NCBI GenBank assembly: GCA_029210205.1
Contig: JARGOD010000025.1
Span: forward strand, 1 to 53,019
Direction: 5' to 3'
Origin: Verrucomicrobiales bacterium
GTDB lineage: Bacteria; Verrucomicrobiota; Verrucomicrobiia; Verrucomicrobiales; DEV007
Length of the DNA: 53,019 nucleotides
The notes beneath the pieces are model-generated. The model made no database searches. It saw only the letters and a list, made by a program, of their open reading frames with translations, and was not told where the DNA came from. A program made the position numbers and the translations under genes. Positions 5,461-26,496 of the stretch are shown here, piece after piece (position 1 is the stretch's first letter; every line of letters begins with the position of its first letter).

Positions 5461-6303
5461 ATGCCCGACTCGACACCGATTTTCTTCGACAGCCACATGC
5501 ACACACCCCTCTGCAAGCATGCAGAGGGTCACCCCATCGAATACATGGAGCGCGGCGTCGAACAGGGACTGGCCGGGATTATCATGACCTGCCACAGTCC
5601 GATGCCGAACCATTTTTCGCATCGGGTTAGGATGTCCCCGGATCAATTTAATGAATACGTTTCGATCGTTAAGGAGGCCAGCGACGCCGCGCCAGAACAT
5701 TTCGAAGTCCGCCTTGGCATGGAGAGCGACTACTTCCCGGGCAAAGAAAAGTGGCTTAGCGAGCTGCATAAGAAAGCAGACTTTCACTACGTTCTCGGCT
5801 CCGTACACTGGCATATCCCTGAGTATCTCGATGCCTTTTGGCGCGGCGATCCGATGGCTTTTCGCCGTCAGTATTTCGAGCACCTCGCCGACTCCGCCGA
5901 ATCAGGTCTCTTTGATTCCCTCGCACACCCTGACCTCGTCAAGAACGCGAGTCCCGATGACTGGGACTTTGAAGTCATGCGCCCGTTCGTCGCCAAAGCC
6001 CTCGATCGAATTGCGAATGCTGGAGTAGCGATGGAGCTTAATACTTCGGGCCTCAACAAAGTGTATCCGGAGATGAATCCGGGCCCGAAAATGCTCGCGA
6101 TGATGGCGGAACGCGATATTCCCGTTGTGATCGGTTCCGACTCGCACACTCCCCGGCGGGTCGCTGATCAATTTCCTCGTGCGCTGGAGAATCTGCAGAA
6201 AGCCGGTTTCGAGACGGTCAGTGTTTTCCGCGAACGGCGGAGGACTGATTTTCCAATCAAGTTGGTTCAGGAGAATCTGGCGATTCCGAAATCGGCGTTT
6301 TAG
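5461..6303 (+). CDS. PHP-domain phosphatase, histidinol-phosphatase (HisJ-type) family
   Basis: A 280-residue PHP-superfamily metal phosphoesterase. The metal-binding blocks are all present in order: DSHMHTPLC near the N-terminus, TCHSPMP, GMESDYFP, LGSVHWH, LAHPDLV, and IGSDSHTP near the C-terminus. This set matches the HisJ/HisK type of histidinol-phosphate phosphatase. No other his genes are adjacent, so a role in histidine synthesis is an assignment by family, not context. It is convergent with the next gene on the other strand and overlaps it by four bases, leaving no room for separate terminators. Confidence 0.85.
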   Translation: MPDSTPIFFDSHMHTPLCKHAEGHPIEYMERGVEQGLAGIIMTCHSPMPNHFSHRVRMSPDQFNEYVSIVKEASDAAPEHFEVRLGMESDYFPGKEKWLSELHKKADFHYVLGSVHWHIPEYLDAFWRGDPMAFRRQYFEHLADSAESGLFDSLAHPDLVKNASPDDWDFEVMRPFVAKALDRIANAGVAMELNTSGLNKVYPEMNPGPKMLAMMAERDIPVVIGSDSHTPRRVADQFPRALENLQKAGFETVSVFRERRRTDFPIKLVQENLAIPKSAF

Positions 6304-7205
6304 TCGAGTCGGGCTTCGATTTCACCGATTTGCCTCGCGAGGGCGGTCATCTTTTGAACTTCGTACCGATAACCGATTTCGTTGTTCTGGAGATAGAACT
6401 CGTCCCGACGGATTCGGCACTCAGCCATCTCCCGTCTGAGACTTTCGAGGTCTCCCAAGGTGGGGAGGCTCGTCGCCGGAGGCTCAGGAATTGCCGTAAA
6501 ATCGATCAATGAATCAACTTTCGGAGGAGCCGCGGCTGAAATTACGGGCGCGCGACCTGCCAGTTCCAGCTCCTGAACCGGAGTTTCAAGGAGCTCATTT
6601 CCGGAGCGGCGTTCTGCAGGAGCTTTCGAATCCTGATAAAAATACCGCTCGATTGAAGAGTAAACCAAATTCACCGGAGGCTCCAAAATAGGAGCTGCAA
6701 TGTAAGCAATTCGGAGCACAGCGAGCGAAACAAGAATAATCGCTGAAATCTTAAGGGCGTTCCTCTGCCAATCATTGTCGCCCCCCAGACTTTCCTTCAC
6801 CGAATCATTCACGCGCGCAGCAACACCTCTGTGATGAGCTACTGGGTTAATTTGAGTGAGGGGAACAGTTTCGACTTTTTCGTCCGCTACCAGCTCGAAA
6901 ATCGAATCACACTCGCAGAGGACCAAGTTTTCGTCATAGAGCCACTGATAAAAATTTGTCAGCCCAACCGCAGAAAACTCACCCTGAAATTGGCCATAAA
7001 TCTCTTTAGCAATTTCTTCGAAAGTACGTTCCCCATCGAAACGGCGCATCATTTCGTACTGCCATGGTTTGAGGACGTAACGCTGCCCATCGGCTATCTT
7101 CTCAGCGAGGACCTCATCTTTGCCATGCGCAAAGCGCATCTCCTGCCGCGGCCGAAGCCGGAGCGGAAATATCTCTGACAAATGAGCTGGAGATACATTG
7201 TTCAC
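6300..7205 (-). CDS. PqqD-like domain protein with one membrane segment and a C-terminal coiled coil
   Basis: A 301-residue protein starting with GTG. Residues about 35-98 read like a PqqD-type winged-helix domain: RYVLKPWQYEMMRRFDGERT, then an EEIAKEIYG helix and LYDENLVLCE. Such domains occur alone in RiPP pathways and at the N-terminus of some HlyD- and M50-type export proteins. One transmembrane helix follows at about 151-171, then a Pro/Ala-rich linker and a charged C-terminal helix (252-301) likely to form a coiled coil. The orientation would place the PqqD-like part in the cytoplasm. I see no HlyD barrel-sandwich repeat, so it is not an ordinary adaptor. It is the last gene of a four-gene group and has its own promoter (7232-7260). 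Confidence 0.6.
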   Translation of the reverse strand: MNNVSPAHLSEIFPLRLRPRQEMRFAHGKDEVLAEKIADGQRYVLKPWQYEMMRRFDGERTFEEIAKEIYGQFQGEFSAVGLTNFYQWLYDENLVLCECDSIFELVADEKVETVPLTQINPVAHHRGVAARVNDSVKESLGGDNDWQRNALKISAIILVSLAVLRIAYIAAPILEPPVNLVYSSIERYFYQDSKAPAERRSGNELLETPVQELELAGRAPVISAAAPPKVDSLIDFTAIPEPPATSLPTLGDLESLRREMAECRIRRDEFYLQNNEIGYRYEVQKMTALARQIGEIEARLD

Positions 7206-7231
7206 GAAAATTGATTGTTAAGTCTACGGAA

Positions 7232-7260
7232 ATTATAGATTTATTCCATAATTAGTCCAA
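7232..7260 (-). promoter_or_regulatory. Sigma-70-type promoter for the PqqD-like gene
   Basis: On the minus strand TTGGAC (7260-7255) is followed after exactly 17 bases by a perfect TATAAT (7237-7232). The predicted start of transcription is about 20 bases before the GTG codon at 7205. It lies in the 94-base gap after the protease gene, so the last gene can be expressed apart from the rest of the group. Predicted from sequence only. Confidence 0.6.
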
Positions 7261-7299
7261 CACTTTCCAGAAAGAATTTTCCGGTAGTCGAAACAAAAA

Positions 7300-8070
7300 T
7301 CAGCGAGCTGAGGCTAAAATACTTAGGAGCGGCTTGATGAGCGACGGCTCCATTTCAGGAAATGCCGAAAGGAGCCTCGCAATGCGTCCCGTGACGAGAG
7401 GTGCAGCATAGCTGCTTCCAGTCTCGGTTTTCATTTCGCCATCAAGCCAGGGAACCTCAACCCGTTCTCCGCGCGCGAAGAATGAAACCATCTCTCCCCG
7501 CTTTGAAAAAAGCTCTTCGGGCTGACAATCGATTCCCTGCACACTGATAACTGAGGGAAAATAGGCCGGCCACTCGCGAATCGAGGAGTTAACATTACTG
7601 CATGCAGCCACAACCTGGACTCCGGCAAGGAATGCTTCATCGACCCACTCTTTGTAATCCATGACGTAGCGCGCCAAACCCCGGCAACCAAAACTGCAGT
7701 TGATGACCTGATACCCGCGCGCGATGGCCTGACTGACACACTCAGCAATGACAAAACTCCGCGCCTGATTCGTACTGTCGAGCGCTCTAAAACTCCCGAA
7801 TATGGCGGCGGGAGCTTCATTTGAAATTAAGCTCGCCACCGCTGTACCGTGTCCGTAAACATCGGTCCCCTGGTTTTCTCCGATATGCAGATTCACCCCG
7901 TCGCACGAAATGACGATATCGTCCTGCAACTCCATACCATGCAATGCCGGATGAGTAGGGTCGACACCGGAATCGATCACAGCAACTTTAACGCCTGATC
8001 CATCCCCGGAACGAAGCGCCTCCGATGCTTTGGCCAAATCAGGCCATCTCGGATCTTCACTAGCTGACAT
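7300..8070 (-). CDS. Compact subtilisin-like serine protease (S8) without signal peptide
   Basis: A 256-residue peptidase of the S8 family. Numbering from ATG 8070, the catalytic triad is Asp33 (AVIDSGVD), His74 (YGHGTAVAS) and Ser220 (ETGSSYAAP), and the oxyanion Asn is in AACSN at 159. The usual GN of that block is SN and the usual GTSMAAP is GSSYAAP, both tolerated in the family. There is no signal peptide, propeptide or C-terminal extension, so the enzyme is probably cytoplasmic, which is unusual for subtilases. Its start lies inside the end of the GAF gene (11-base overlap; 14 if the adjacent GTG is used), indicating translational coupling. Its target is not known; the small first protein of the operon is one candidate. 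Confidence 0.85.
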   Translation of the reverse strand: MSASEDPRWPDLAKASEALRSGDGSGVKVAVIDSGVDPTHPALHGMELQDDIVISCDGVNLHIGENQGTDVYGHGTAVASLISNEAPAAIFGSFRALDSTNQARSFVIAECVSQAIARGYQVINCSFGCRGLARYVMDYKEWVDEAFLAGVQVVAACSNVNSSIREWPAYFPSVISVQGIDCQPEELFSKRGEMVSFFARGERVEVPWLDGEMKTETGSSYAAPLVTGRIARLLSAFPEMEPSLIKPLLSILASAR

Positions 8071-8662
8071 CACTTAACCCCATGGCCGAGGACAAAAGCG
8101 TTTCGTTCACGAGCCTCTCCACCACATTGGAAACCAGAGCAAGCGCCTCAATGTCCGCCGAGCTGAATCCTTCATTTCCCTCGCCGCTATCGACTTCCTC
8201 AAGTTGAACGCATGAGATGACACCACGAAGACCGAATGCAAAATAGAGAGGAACAGCGAGCAATGCAGTCGTGTGTTTCGACATCTTTCGATCAAGCGTG
8301 TCGTCATGGCCGCTGCTAGCTTGAATATTATTTTCGCAATAGGGCTGCTGCTGTGAGAAAACCATTGAGATGATGCCTGAGCCGATCGGCTGTTCGAAGC
8401 CGATTAAAGAACCGGCCTCATCACCAGAGTTGTAGGACGCCACGAGAAACTTCTCTTCACTGTCAGCGAGCCAAATAGTCCCTTCGCATCCGCCAACGTG
8501 GTTGAATGCTTCGCGCAAAAGCGAAATTGCGACCTCATCGAAGAGTCCGATGAGATCTGTCGGAGTCCCTTTGCTTATCCAGGACTCCAAGTGTTCGATC
8601 AAATCGCCACCAAGGCGATTGAATTCAGCGTTTCTAAGAAGTCGGGTCCTGGCTCCGATCAT
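8060..8662 (-). CDS. GAF-domain protein, likely sensor
   Basis: A 200-residue soluble protein. After an N-terminal helical part (residues 1-40), residues about 40-190 have the GAF pattern: AISLLREAFNHVGGCEGTIW, LIGFEQPIGSGIISMVF, a TTALLAVPL strand and FGLRGVISCVQL, ending in a helix DIEALALVSNVVERLVN. GAF domains bind small ligands such as cyclic nucleotides, haem or aromatic acids, but no ligand can be named here. There is no attached kinase, cyclase or phosphodiesterase domain, so any output must act through a partner. The start ATG overlaps the preceding stop as TAATG and the end overlaps the protease gene, which argues that sensor and protease are made together. Confidence 0.75.
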   Translation of the reverse strand: MIGARTRLLRNAEFNRLGGDLIEHLESWISKGTPTDLIGLFDEVAISLLREAFNHVGGCEGTIWLADSEEKFLVASYNSGDEAGSLIGFEQPIGSGIISMVFSQQQPYCENNIQASSGHDDTLDRKMSKHTTALLAVPLYFAFGLRGVISCVQLEEVDSGEGNEGFSSADIEALALVSNVVERLVNETLLSSAMGLSDVS

Positions 8663-8883
8663 TAGGATTCTGCTTCAAGCTTACTTACCAAAGTGTGAAG
8701 CGCTGTCTCGTTCCCTAGAATCTCAGGAAGCAAACCTTCCCTCTCGGCGTCAGTAAGCTTGCCCTGGGCGAATCTTTTTATCAGTTCGACCTGACCATCA
8801 GAGAGAGGATTCGAGGAATGACCGGAAACTTCAGGACCGAGGTTTTCAAGGAATTGAGCGAGGATTGAGAAATCGTTATTCAT
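8662..8883 (-). CDS. Small acidic helical protein, first gene of the GAF/protease operon
   Basis: A 73-residue protein that I cannot assign to a family. It is soluble, has no cysteines, and looks fully helical after a short Ser/Gly/Pro-containing stretch at about residues 18-27. The segment LSDGQVELIKRFAQGKLTDA followed by a helix resembles the first helices of small anti-sigma-like or regulatory proteins, but no zinc-binding residues are present. Its TAA stop overlaps the ATG of the GAF gene, so expression is coupled. Context suggests substrate, inhibitor or adaptor of the subtilase; a peptide precursor recognised by the PqqD-like protein is another possibility. Both are inference. Confidence 0.55.
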   Translation of the reverse strand: MNNDFSILAQFLENLGPEVSGHSSNPLSDGQVELIKRFAQGKLTDAEREGLLPEILGNETALHTLVSKLEAES

Positions 8884-9039
8884 GTCAGTTAATCAGGGGA
8901 GAGTTTAATCTTGTTCACAGGATCGACGCTCCGAGAACCACCCTTATGCAAAAGGAATGATATTTTCTGAAAATACTTATCCCTTCCAAGCCTCCTTGCC
9001 AATTAAAACTTATTAATTACTGATATTATGGTTTTTATA

Positions 9040-24869: not shown

Positions 24870-25574
24870 TTACAGGTCCAATCCCGCAGCACAAAGTCGC
24901 TGAAAATCATCCCACTCAATAGAAAGATCTGCGTCCTGTTGCTGGATGAAGCCCATCGTCTCTGTCGCAATTTGGGCGCGCGCCGAGGTCAGGGAGCGGC
25001 TCACCCGAGTCTGGTCACACTGCCACATCCTTGCGATGAGCGTCTGACTGATACCGTGAAGGTAGGAAAGCTTCAGCATAAGGAGCGTGTCAGGTTCAAG
25101 TGAGTCAAACGCATGTTTGATCGCCCGTCCCATCAAATCGCTGAGATCTTCATCAAGGAGAGACTCATCTTCCGCTCCCGCAACTCGATCAAACCGGTCA
25201 CCTGAACGCTCGTCATCATCTTCGTAGGCAGGAAGCTCTCCGCGAAATTTGTCACGACGCTTGAGATCAAGCCAGCGGTTCCAGGTGATGCGAATCATCC
25301 AGGTGGAAAGAGAAGACCGACCCTCAAATTTTTCAAGAAGCGGGCGCGTCTGTCCTTTTTTACCGGCTCCAAAACACTCAGCGATAATGTCCGCAACGAG
25401 ATCCTGCGCCTGGGTTCGCTCGACACCTCTCGACATCATGACTCGCTCCAGCATCGGCTGATACTCTTCCTGAAATGCCCTGACCGCTAAATCGTCTCCC
25501 GCTACTGCTCTATCGACCAGATCGAGATCCTCGGCGTGTTTTAGCGGTTTAGTTTCAGAAGATGATTCGCTCAT
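24870..25574 (-). CDS. ECF-type RNA polymerase sigma factor
   Basis: A 234-residue sigma-70 family factor. Region 2 is at about 15-100: DLVDRAVAGDDLAVRAFQEE, then LVADIIAECFG, and SLSTWMIRITWNRWLDLKRR (region 2.3-2.4). An acidic, Asp-rich linker (AYEDDDERSGDRFD) follows. Region 4 is near the C-terminus: LEPDTLLMLKLSYLHGISQT and RMWQCDQTRVSRSLTSARAQ, a helix-turn-helix. The start ATG 25574 excludes 20 extra residues that an upstream TTG would add. No clear anti-sigma gene is adjacent. It precedes the SGNH hydrolase gene, which it may or may not control. Confidence 0.85.
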   Translation of the reverse strand: MSESSSETKPLKHAEDLDLVDRAVAGDDLAVRAFQEEYQPMLERVMMSRGVERTQAQDLVADIIAECFGAGKKGQTRPLLEKFEGRSSLSTWMIRITWNRWLDLKRRDKFRGELPAYEDDDERSGDRFDRVAGAEDESLLDEDLSDLMGRAIKHAFDSLEPDTLLMLKLSYLHGISQTLIARMWQCDQTRVSRSLTSARAQIATETMGFIQQQDADLSIEWDDFQRLCAAGLDL

Positions 25575-25788: not shown

Positions 25789-26496
25789 CTATGTTGGACT
25801 GCCGACCTCAACCGGAGACCGTTCGTCCGAAACAATCACGCCATCCTGCAAGTGCACCCGGCGATCAACGCGATCTAGCAATCGGTCATCATGAGTGGAG
25901 AACAAAAAGGCAGCGCCCTTATCCTGATTGATTCGGCGCATCAAATCGATAATCAAATTAGCGTTGTAGGTATCAAGGTTGGCTGTGGGTTCGTCGGCAA
26001 GAACAAGAAGTGGATCAGTGACCAGAGCCCTCGCGATGGCAACCCGCTGCTGTTGCCCACCACTGAGCTTCTGTGGCCGATGCCCCTTGCGGTCCTTTAA
26101 TTCGACTTCATCGAGGAGGGATTCAGCCTTTTCTCTCGCGAGTTCCTTGCTGACCCCGTTAATCTGCAAAGGGAGCATCACATTCTCAAGAGCAGTGAGA
26201 ACCGGGATTAAGTTGAAGTTTTGGAACACAAATCCAATCGAAGTATTTCGAAGTTCGCTTCTTTTCGCATCGGAAAGGCCTTCTGCGGAGTGACCATTGA
26301 TGATCACTTCACCTTCAGAAGGAGCGTCGAGAAGGCCTATCAAGTTACAAAGAGTCGATTTCCCTGATCCCGATGGCCCCCACACCGCAATGAACTCTCT
26401 TTCCTCAATATCGAGCGATACTTCATCCAGCGCTGTCACTTCAGTGTCACCAAAATGATAAGTTTTCTTGAGTTTTCGGGTTTCAACAACTTTCAT
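25789..26496 (-). CDS. ABC transporter ATPase, LolD/MacB type
   Basis: A 235-residue ATPase of the LolD/MacB group. Walker A is [10 protein letters not shown]-loop [17 protein letters not shown] (characteristic of this group), signature [15 protein letters not shown], Walker [12 protein letters not shown] and H-loop STHDD. There is no permease, adaptor or lipoprotein gene next to it: the sigma factor is upstream in the other direction of reading order and a glycosyltransferase is divergent. It is therefore an orphan ATPase; the permease pair at 30109-32413 already has its own ATPase. Confidence 0.9.

Follow-up and report, generated by a model that had tools for sequence, protein, structure and literature searches.

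The stretch analysed here, called the window below, is the 53,019-nucleotide contig JARGOD010000025.1 of a Verrucomicrobiales bacterium (assembly GCA_029210205.1). A first-pass annotation made from its letters described a compact operon of four minus-strand genes, encoding a 73-residue protein, a lone GAF domain, a cytoplasmic subtilase (peptidase family S8) and a PqqD-like membrane protein, and proposed that ligand sensing through GAF controls the protease, whose product or target is then handled by the membrane protein. All four open reading frames (ORFs) are real and lie where they had been placed. A sigma factor of the extracytoplasmic function (ECF) type and a promoter, both missing from that annotation, put the unit in a different light. 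The principal features are the following:

8925..8950, minus strand: ECF-type promoter TGCATAA-N15-CGTC upstream of the small gene (-35-like element at 8944-8950, -10-like element at 8925-8928)
8662..8883, minus strand: small gene, encoding a 73-residue protein with four predicted helices, a candidate zinc-less anti-sigma protein
8060..8662, minus strand: GAF gene, encoding a single-domain protein of 200 amino acids (Pfam GAF_2); overlaps the S8 gene
7300..8070, minus strand: S8 gene, encoding a compact cytosolic subtilase with D34, H75, N160 and S221 (numbering from GTG 8073)
24870..25574, minus strand: ECF-type sigma gene, ortholog of the sigma gene that lies upstream of small elsewhere; alternative start TTG 25634

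The small, GAF and S8 genes are tightly packed. The small/GAF junction reads TAATG, with a one-base overlap at 8662, and the GAF/S8 overlap is 11 bases with ATG 8070 as the start of S8, or 14 with GTG 8073. (With automatic start choice, the 11-base overlap was found in 19/29 loci of the window's genus.) The GAF protein matched Pfam GAF_2 (9.4e-8; 32.8 bits, cut-off 28.6) and the subtilase matched Peptidase_S8 (8.9e-25), with the catalytic Asp34, His75, Asn160 and Ser221 of the S8 fold unchanged across 17 aligned sequences, in agreement with the lone GAF domain and full triad of the first-pass annotation. The absence of a signal peptide and propeptide was also confirmed: the sequence preceding Asp34 is too short to hold both, and in the compact relatives, too, an overlooked export signal would not fit. 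In the long secreted subtilases of the family (n = 7), the Asp is found 195-273 residues after the start of the open frame. Small, GAF and S8 are kept together in 29/29 window-type loci of the genus (29/33 genus genomes). They also co-occur in other genomes; because the unit of three turns up again in other families, and with its genes rearranged, its linkage is more than chance. These three genes form a conserved unit, and the PqqD-like gene is a separate, fourth gene.

Within the 110 bp upstream of small, the pattern TGCAT-N17-CGTC is common to 24 of 30 sequences from the genus. A weight matrix was built from those 24 sites, and a score of at least 15, reached by 0.7% of random 250-bp stretches, was taken as the threshold. 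By this measure the promoter is present in 28/29 genus loci (training sites included) and in 13 of the 20 small loci outside the training set (9/12 plus 4/8). It also precedes the sigma gene itself in all four genomes of genus g2, which makes it likely, as far as upstream sequences can tell, that this sigma factor reads this promoter.

The sigma gene is separated from small by 16 kb in the window. Its product is 67% identical to the copy in locus L071 and qualifies as an ECF sigma factor through its match to Pfam Sigma70_r2 (7.9e-7; 29.2 bits, cut-off 24). Region 4 gave no match in the window protein and a sub-threshold one in the L071 ortholog, which passes TIGR02937 (62.1 bits, cut-off 42.9). 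In genera g2, g10, g13 and g18, the sigma gene sits directly upstream of small-GAF-S8. The small gene is present in 47 of the 74 genomes of the family; sigma (E <= 1e-15) and small occur together in 43, both are missing from 26, and five are discordant (Fisher p 1e-14, a value that, like all P values here, ignores kinship between genomes). The discordant genomes comprise one with sigma and no small gene (G018, 52% complete) and four with small and no sigma (G004, G008, G016 and G056, 77-92% complete), of which G016 holds a sigma fragment (E 2e-14). An ABC transporter ATPase-like gene (named by eye) lies directly upstream of sigma in the window, at 25789-26496 on the same strand.

A class-wide draw of 385 genomes yielded the small gene in 24, two of them of the window's genus. 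Three of the 23 loci outside the genus were dropped, their matches lying inside long ORFs, which left 20 credible loci. (These genome-derived loci, given G numbers, and the contig-fetched loci, given L numbers, overlap, many coming from the same assemblies, and the two sets are not summed.) Sigma lies <=1.5 kb from small in 18 of the 20, the gene-beside-sigma arrangement of class I anti-sigma domains (ASDI), and GAF and S8 are near small in 13. In G290, G331, G432, G191 and G364, sigma and small are on one strand and GAF-S8 is on the other, and in L070 S8 alone is inverted; given these rearrangements, the association is not mere synteny. Five loci (G439, G450, G108, G289 and the second G203 locus) contain sigma-small with no GAF or S8 of the same kind within 13-14 kb. 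The small protein is therefore the more constant companion of sigma. G350 has small-GAF without S8, and its sigma gene is 4 kb distant.

The fourth gene of the supposed operon and its promoter are placed as follows:

6300..7205, minus strand: PqqD-like gene, encoding a probable bitopic membrane protein with an N-terminal RiPP recognition element (RRE)/PqqD fold, a transmembrane (TM)-like helix and a C-terminal helical pair (RiPP, ribosomally synthesized and post-translationally modified peptide)
7232..7260, minus strand: conserved sigma70-type promoter of the PqqD-like gene, TTGGAC-N17-TATAAT, identified from upstream sequences

A gap of 94 bp separates this gene from S8. It is present in 24/29 genus loci (one of the five misses is at a contig edge), making it a looser partner, and it was not seen adjoining the unit in the other fetched genera, though GAF-S8 stays. 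The ECF-type promoter was found upstream of it in 0/24 cases. The close packing and overlaps of the operon described earlier thus hold for the first three genes, and the PqqD-like gene was rejected as an operon member on the strength of its own promoter and the lack of the ECF-type one. With that separate promoter and five loci in which the gene was not seen, the idea that the membrane protein handles the protease product could not be sustained.

The domain content proposed for the PqqD-like protein fared better in structure than in sequence. No sequence model reached its cut-off, the nearest being ScmD (E 0.02; 15.1/100 bits) and PaaA_N (E 0.05; 13.5/27 bits). The AlphaFold model of residues 11-100 is a winged-helix domain with a mean predicted local distance difference test (pLDDT) score of 85-96 per 10-residue block. 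Foldseek placed TbiB1, an RRE, at the top (E 2.7e-3, prob 1.00), with no match at E <= 0.001; the best 21 fold matches include ThcOx, sactipeptide-maturase and PqqD entries, as well as non-RRE proteins such as GdmN and Rv2067c. The fold search thus points to an RRE winged helix. Beyond this domain, the model contains a long helix (145-173), interpreted as TM, and a helical pair (250-300) where a coiled coil had been described.

Subtilases were searched for in the 74 family genomes, of which 64 gave matches, and the matches were sorted into four groups by identity and neighbours. Class A is the window type, found in 29/33 genus genomes and in some from other genera. Class B loci (n = 15) have GAF-S8 with a YkuD membrane protein behind it in 13 cases; one of the remaining two, L041, breaks off at a contig end. 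The class B unit at L033:5492-8139 encodes a GAF protein, a subtilase and what is probably a bitopic protein; small, sigma and the promoter are absent. The YkuD protein there comprises an N-terminal part of ~200 residues, a single segment that looks membrane-like by eye and, at the C terminus, the YkuD (L,D-transpeptidase) domain. Class C comprises S8 with or without GAF, mostly within a RiPP-like cluster, and class D the secreted subtilases. Among 83 distinct subtilase ORFs, which represent the fetched loci and not every match of the 74-genome search, a GAF neighbour accompanies 68/75 compact subtilases vs 0/8 secreted ones. (L039 was moved by hand to the compact set, and L077, frame-broken and secreted, to the secreted set.) It is this genomic pairing that speaks for control of the cytoplasmic protease by GAF, as first proposed.

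Relatives in named genomes are mostly from Verrucomicrobiota (Akkermansiaceae/Verrucomicrobiales metagenome-assembled genomes, MAGs), and more distant ones come from records labelled Spartobacteria, Puniceicoccaceae, Phycisphaerales, Betaproteobacteria and Akkermansia muciniphila. The NCBIfam neighbours of the subtilase are mycosin (1.8e-30), then QhpE (6.7e-27) and PatA (1.5e-10), with scores below the family cut-offs for both QhpE (NF049966; 94.3 bits, cut-off 165) and PatA/PatG (TIGR03895; 40.5 bits, cut-off 421).

The ECF-type promoter recurs before other genes. A search of the window's own genome for the strict motif gave four sites, against one for the reversed control. One belongs to the unit, the second to a FecR-TpsA-TpsB operon, the third to a small lipoprotein-like ORF and the last to the RiPP operon of class C. 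Across 33 genus genomes, there were 78 strict matches vs 50 in the reversed control. With the two counts so close, we consider the strict matches outside the operon promoters to be largely chance, and rejected a wide regulon drawn from the strict motif; other targets rest on the upstream tests.

Upstream of the first gene of the class C operon, encoding a radical S-adenosylmethionine (rSAM) enzyme, the score was at least 15 in 9/10 clusters. (The count was 8/9 in the clusters first tested; the tenth, L290, scored 17.6 with a 14-base gap. Omitted are L056, which a contig end truncates, and two loci, L066 and L067, whose sole rSAM is distant and on the opposite strand.) The single miss, L065, has a site of 15.1 at 349 bp, just beyond the stretch tested. 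These clusters encode a GrrM-type rSAM (TIGR04261, 1.8e-136 in L053), a candidate precursor, a multinuclear non-heme iron-dependent oxidative enzyme (MNIO; PF05114, 2e-65 in L065) and a subtilase, and GAF is present in 7/11 of those that contain rSAM. Kin of the candidate precursor in L053 and L061 have CWRRN-like repeats. In the window's own genome, the RiPP-like operon (L052:5991-12464, L277; contig C3) comprises rSAM, candidate precursor, MNIO, GAF and subtilase; the ECF-type promoter lies upstream of it, and a FIST gene is oriented towards it. The promoter may thus also turn on a peptide-making cluster, to judge from these upstream matches. A link between the PqqD-like gene and the class C cluster was not supported: G027, G060 and G025 have class C genes without a PqqD-like gene beside S8.

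The promoter also precedes 4/10 FIST genes and 7/21 FecR genes (12/21 at a score of at least 11; the 21 were taken from 27 matches, the remainder being edge fragments or weak). The FecR-TpsA-TpsB operon of the own genome (L275:2010-12547, contig C157; TpsA, 1947 amino acids) carries the strict promoter and lies back to back with a CHASE2-adenylyl/guanylyl cyclase gene. Cyclase and FecR genes of like kinds adjoin small-GAF-S8 in G027, and in Puniceicoccaceae K14 (L166:5312-12765) GAF, subtilase, a TPR-CHAT protein, a CHASE2-cyclase and sigma are encoded on one strand. The strict site on contig C145 (L276, ~3896) is just upstream of the small lipoprotein-like ORF, which is glycine-rich.

The small protein is conserved over its full length and was modelled as four helices (pLDDT 71.5). 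It had no Pfam match, and profile searches pointed to no plausible family in Pfam or in the PDB, where the leading entries were short stretches of unrelated chains. Two of its 31 Foldseek matches are anti-sigma domains, from DdvA (8rlz, prob 0.44) and ChrR (2z2s, prob 0.20), with E > 1. Class I anti-sigma domains have four helices, ~44% are without a zinc motif and ~35% are soluble, according to PMC7406223. The small protein is most likely anti-sigma-like and holds sigma back. We rejected it as a RiPP precursor, since it is conserved over its whole length and stays with sigma where there is no subtilase.

Gene linkage, co-occurrence with sigma, the promoter and its recurrence before other genes, all features of the DNA itself, support membership of the unit in a sigma circuit. 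We propose that the GAF-controlled cytosolic subtilase is the control part of this ECF circuit and cleaves the anti-sigma-like small protein, a reading that we believe has about an even chance of being correct. Sigma (24870-25574) would transcribe the unit from the promoter at 8925-8950, and the small protein would restrain it. Upon binding a small ligand, GAF would switch on the coupled cytosolic subtilase, which would cleave the small protein and free sigma; free sigma would then renew the unit and turn on a small regulon, among whose members would be envelope genes (FecR and two-partner secretion, TPS) and the RiPP operon, which encodes a subtilase of its own. A cyclic nucleotide from a neighbouring CHASE2-cyclase is a candidate GAF ligand, which we infer from gene proximity as the sole hint. 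More tentatively, regulated proteolysis might here be soluble and take a single step, the whole path running from a second messenger, possibly such a nucleotide, through GAF to a subtilase that destroys the soluble anti-sigma, and from sigma to a modified-peptide operon with a paralogous subtilase. We consider this longer chain possible, though not probable; if true, one regulon would use the same protease design for signalling and for peptide maturation.

Several observations weigh against the proposed circuit. The promoter was absent from seven of the 20 further small loci, including all three of genus g18, and was found upstream of sigma in 0/23 cases in the window's own genus. The four genomes with small and no sigma (G004, G008, G016 and G056) keep the promoter upstream of small, which could be explained by incomplete MAGs or by another sigma reading it. 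No anti-sigma family was found among the Pfam matches of 28 small-protein members, and Foldseek gave no significant match for the small-protein model. In none of the 15 class B loci is the GAF-S8 pair accompanied by small, that sigma or the promoter (in L045, a distant sigma-like gene is encoded on the opposite strand): the score upstream of the class B GAF gene reached 15 in 0/15 loci and 11 in 3/15. The small protein therefore cannot be the sole subtilase substrate. Judging from class B, GAF-S8 is a portable module.

The strongest rival to anti-sigma cleavage is that the subtilase degrades sigma itself and keeps the circuit off, with the small protein as a protease adaptor or cofactor. According to section 3.3 of PMC8999054, the genomic context of ECF54 (carboxypeptidase, subtilase, CHAT) suggests just such proteolytic control without an anti-sigma, and the K14 locus combines sigma and GAF-S8 with a CHAT protein and a CHASE2-cyclase. 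In the five loci without GAF or S8, however, small still adjoins sigma, as would be expected of a direct partner of sigma more than of an adaptor, and we consider degradation of sigma unlikely.

If GAF-S8 is portable, it could also serve in processing, by trimming a bitopic membrane protein (PqqD-like here, YkuD in class B) on its cytosolic side. The regular position of the YkuD-type protein after GAF-S8 in class B, with a layout shared by the PqqD-like protein, would agree with such a role; yet the PqqD-like gene is unseen in five of 29 genus loci and beside the unit in other fetched genera, and its promoter differs from that of the unit. Trimming is thus a distinctly unlikely function for the pair in the window.

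A role in RiPP-type maturation, with the subtilase as leader peptidase and the 73-residue protein as precursor, is suggested by the QhpE and PatA neighbours of S8 (after mycosin), by the RRE-like fold of the PqqD-like domain, by the class C subtilases found with GrrM-type rSAM and MNIO, and by QhpE itself, which cuts its leader in the cytoplasm with a single turnover (PMC7876137). Against this, S8 falls short of the QhpE and PatA cut-offs, and the small protein has no obvious variable core, adjoins no modifying enzyme and remains with sigma in loci lacking the subtilase. Maturation is likely the correct reading for class C and not for the small-GAF-S8 unit, where we think it very unlikely. Equally hard to credit is GAF-S8 as a downstream effector of sigma (e.g., in stress proteolysis) with no feedback on it: the ECF-type promoter, common to two kinds of GAF-S8 pair, is consistent with this, but the constant small-GAF-S8 order, with sigma heading the same row in other genera, would be left unexplained.

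In the best-described ECF circuits, membrane proteases destroy membrane-bound anti-sigma proteins. A soluble circuit with a ligand-linked subtilase would, if true, be another way to wire sigma factors. The literature searched, from which most subscription papers were out of reach, contained no description of a unit of GAF, subtilase, small protein and ECF sigma, and no worked-out ECF example in the phylum Verrucomicrobiota. A subtilase-linked ECF sigma factor as such has already been predicted (ECF54); the pairing with GAF, the small soluble partner, the promoter and the control shared with a RiPP operon were not met in that literature. Through the promoter, part of the regulon can be read directly from sequence and the circuit is linked to a RiPP cluster of the rSAM/MNIO kind, which gives a handle on the timing of peptide production.

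Among the closest precedents is ECF54, likewise an ECF sigma factor with a subtilase nearby and proposed proteolytic control. The likeness is one of subtilase context only; ECF54 is described without an anti-sigma, and section 3.3 of PMC8999054 mentions no GAF partner, four-helix small protein or promoter shared with a RiPP operon. In the Sigma-E/RseA system (DegS, RseP, ClpXP), proteolysis of the anti-sigma likewise frees an ECF sigma (PMC8103513), but there the anti-sigma is membrane-bound, whereas our proposal involves a soluble protein of 73 residues cut by a dedicated subtilase in the cytosol. The ASDI family has four helices, as predicted for the small protein, soluble and zinc-less forms and a gene beside the ECF gene (PMC7406223); the small protein shows no detectable sequence match to it and a weak, non-significant likeness in fold. 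QhpE, which acts in the cytoplasm, and PatA/PatG are related compact subtilases of peptide processing; the window's S8 scores below both family cut-offs and is partnered by a GAF protein. In class C only, the rSAM enzyme resembles GrrM/OscB and the MNIO is as in RiPP clusters of the MbnB/TglH/ChrH type, with the difference that both enzymes and a subtilase are brought together in one cluster, under an ECF-type promoter.

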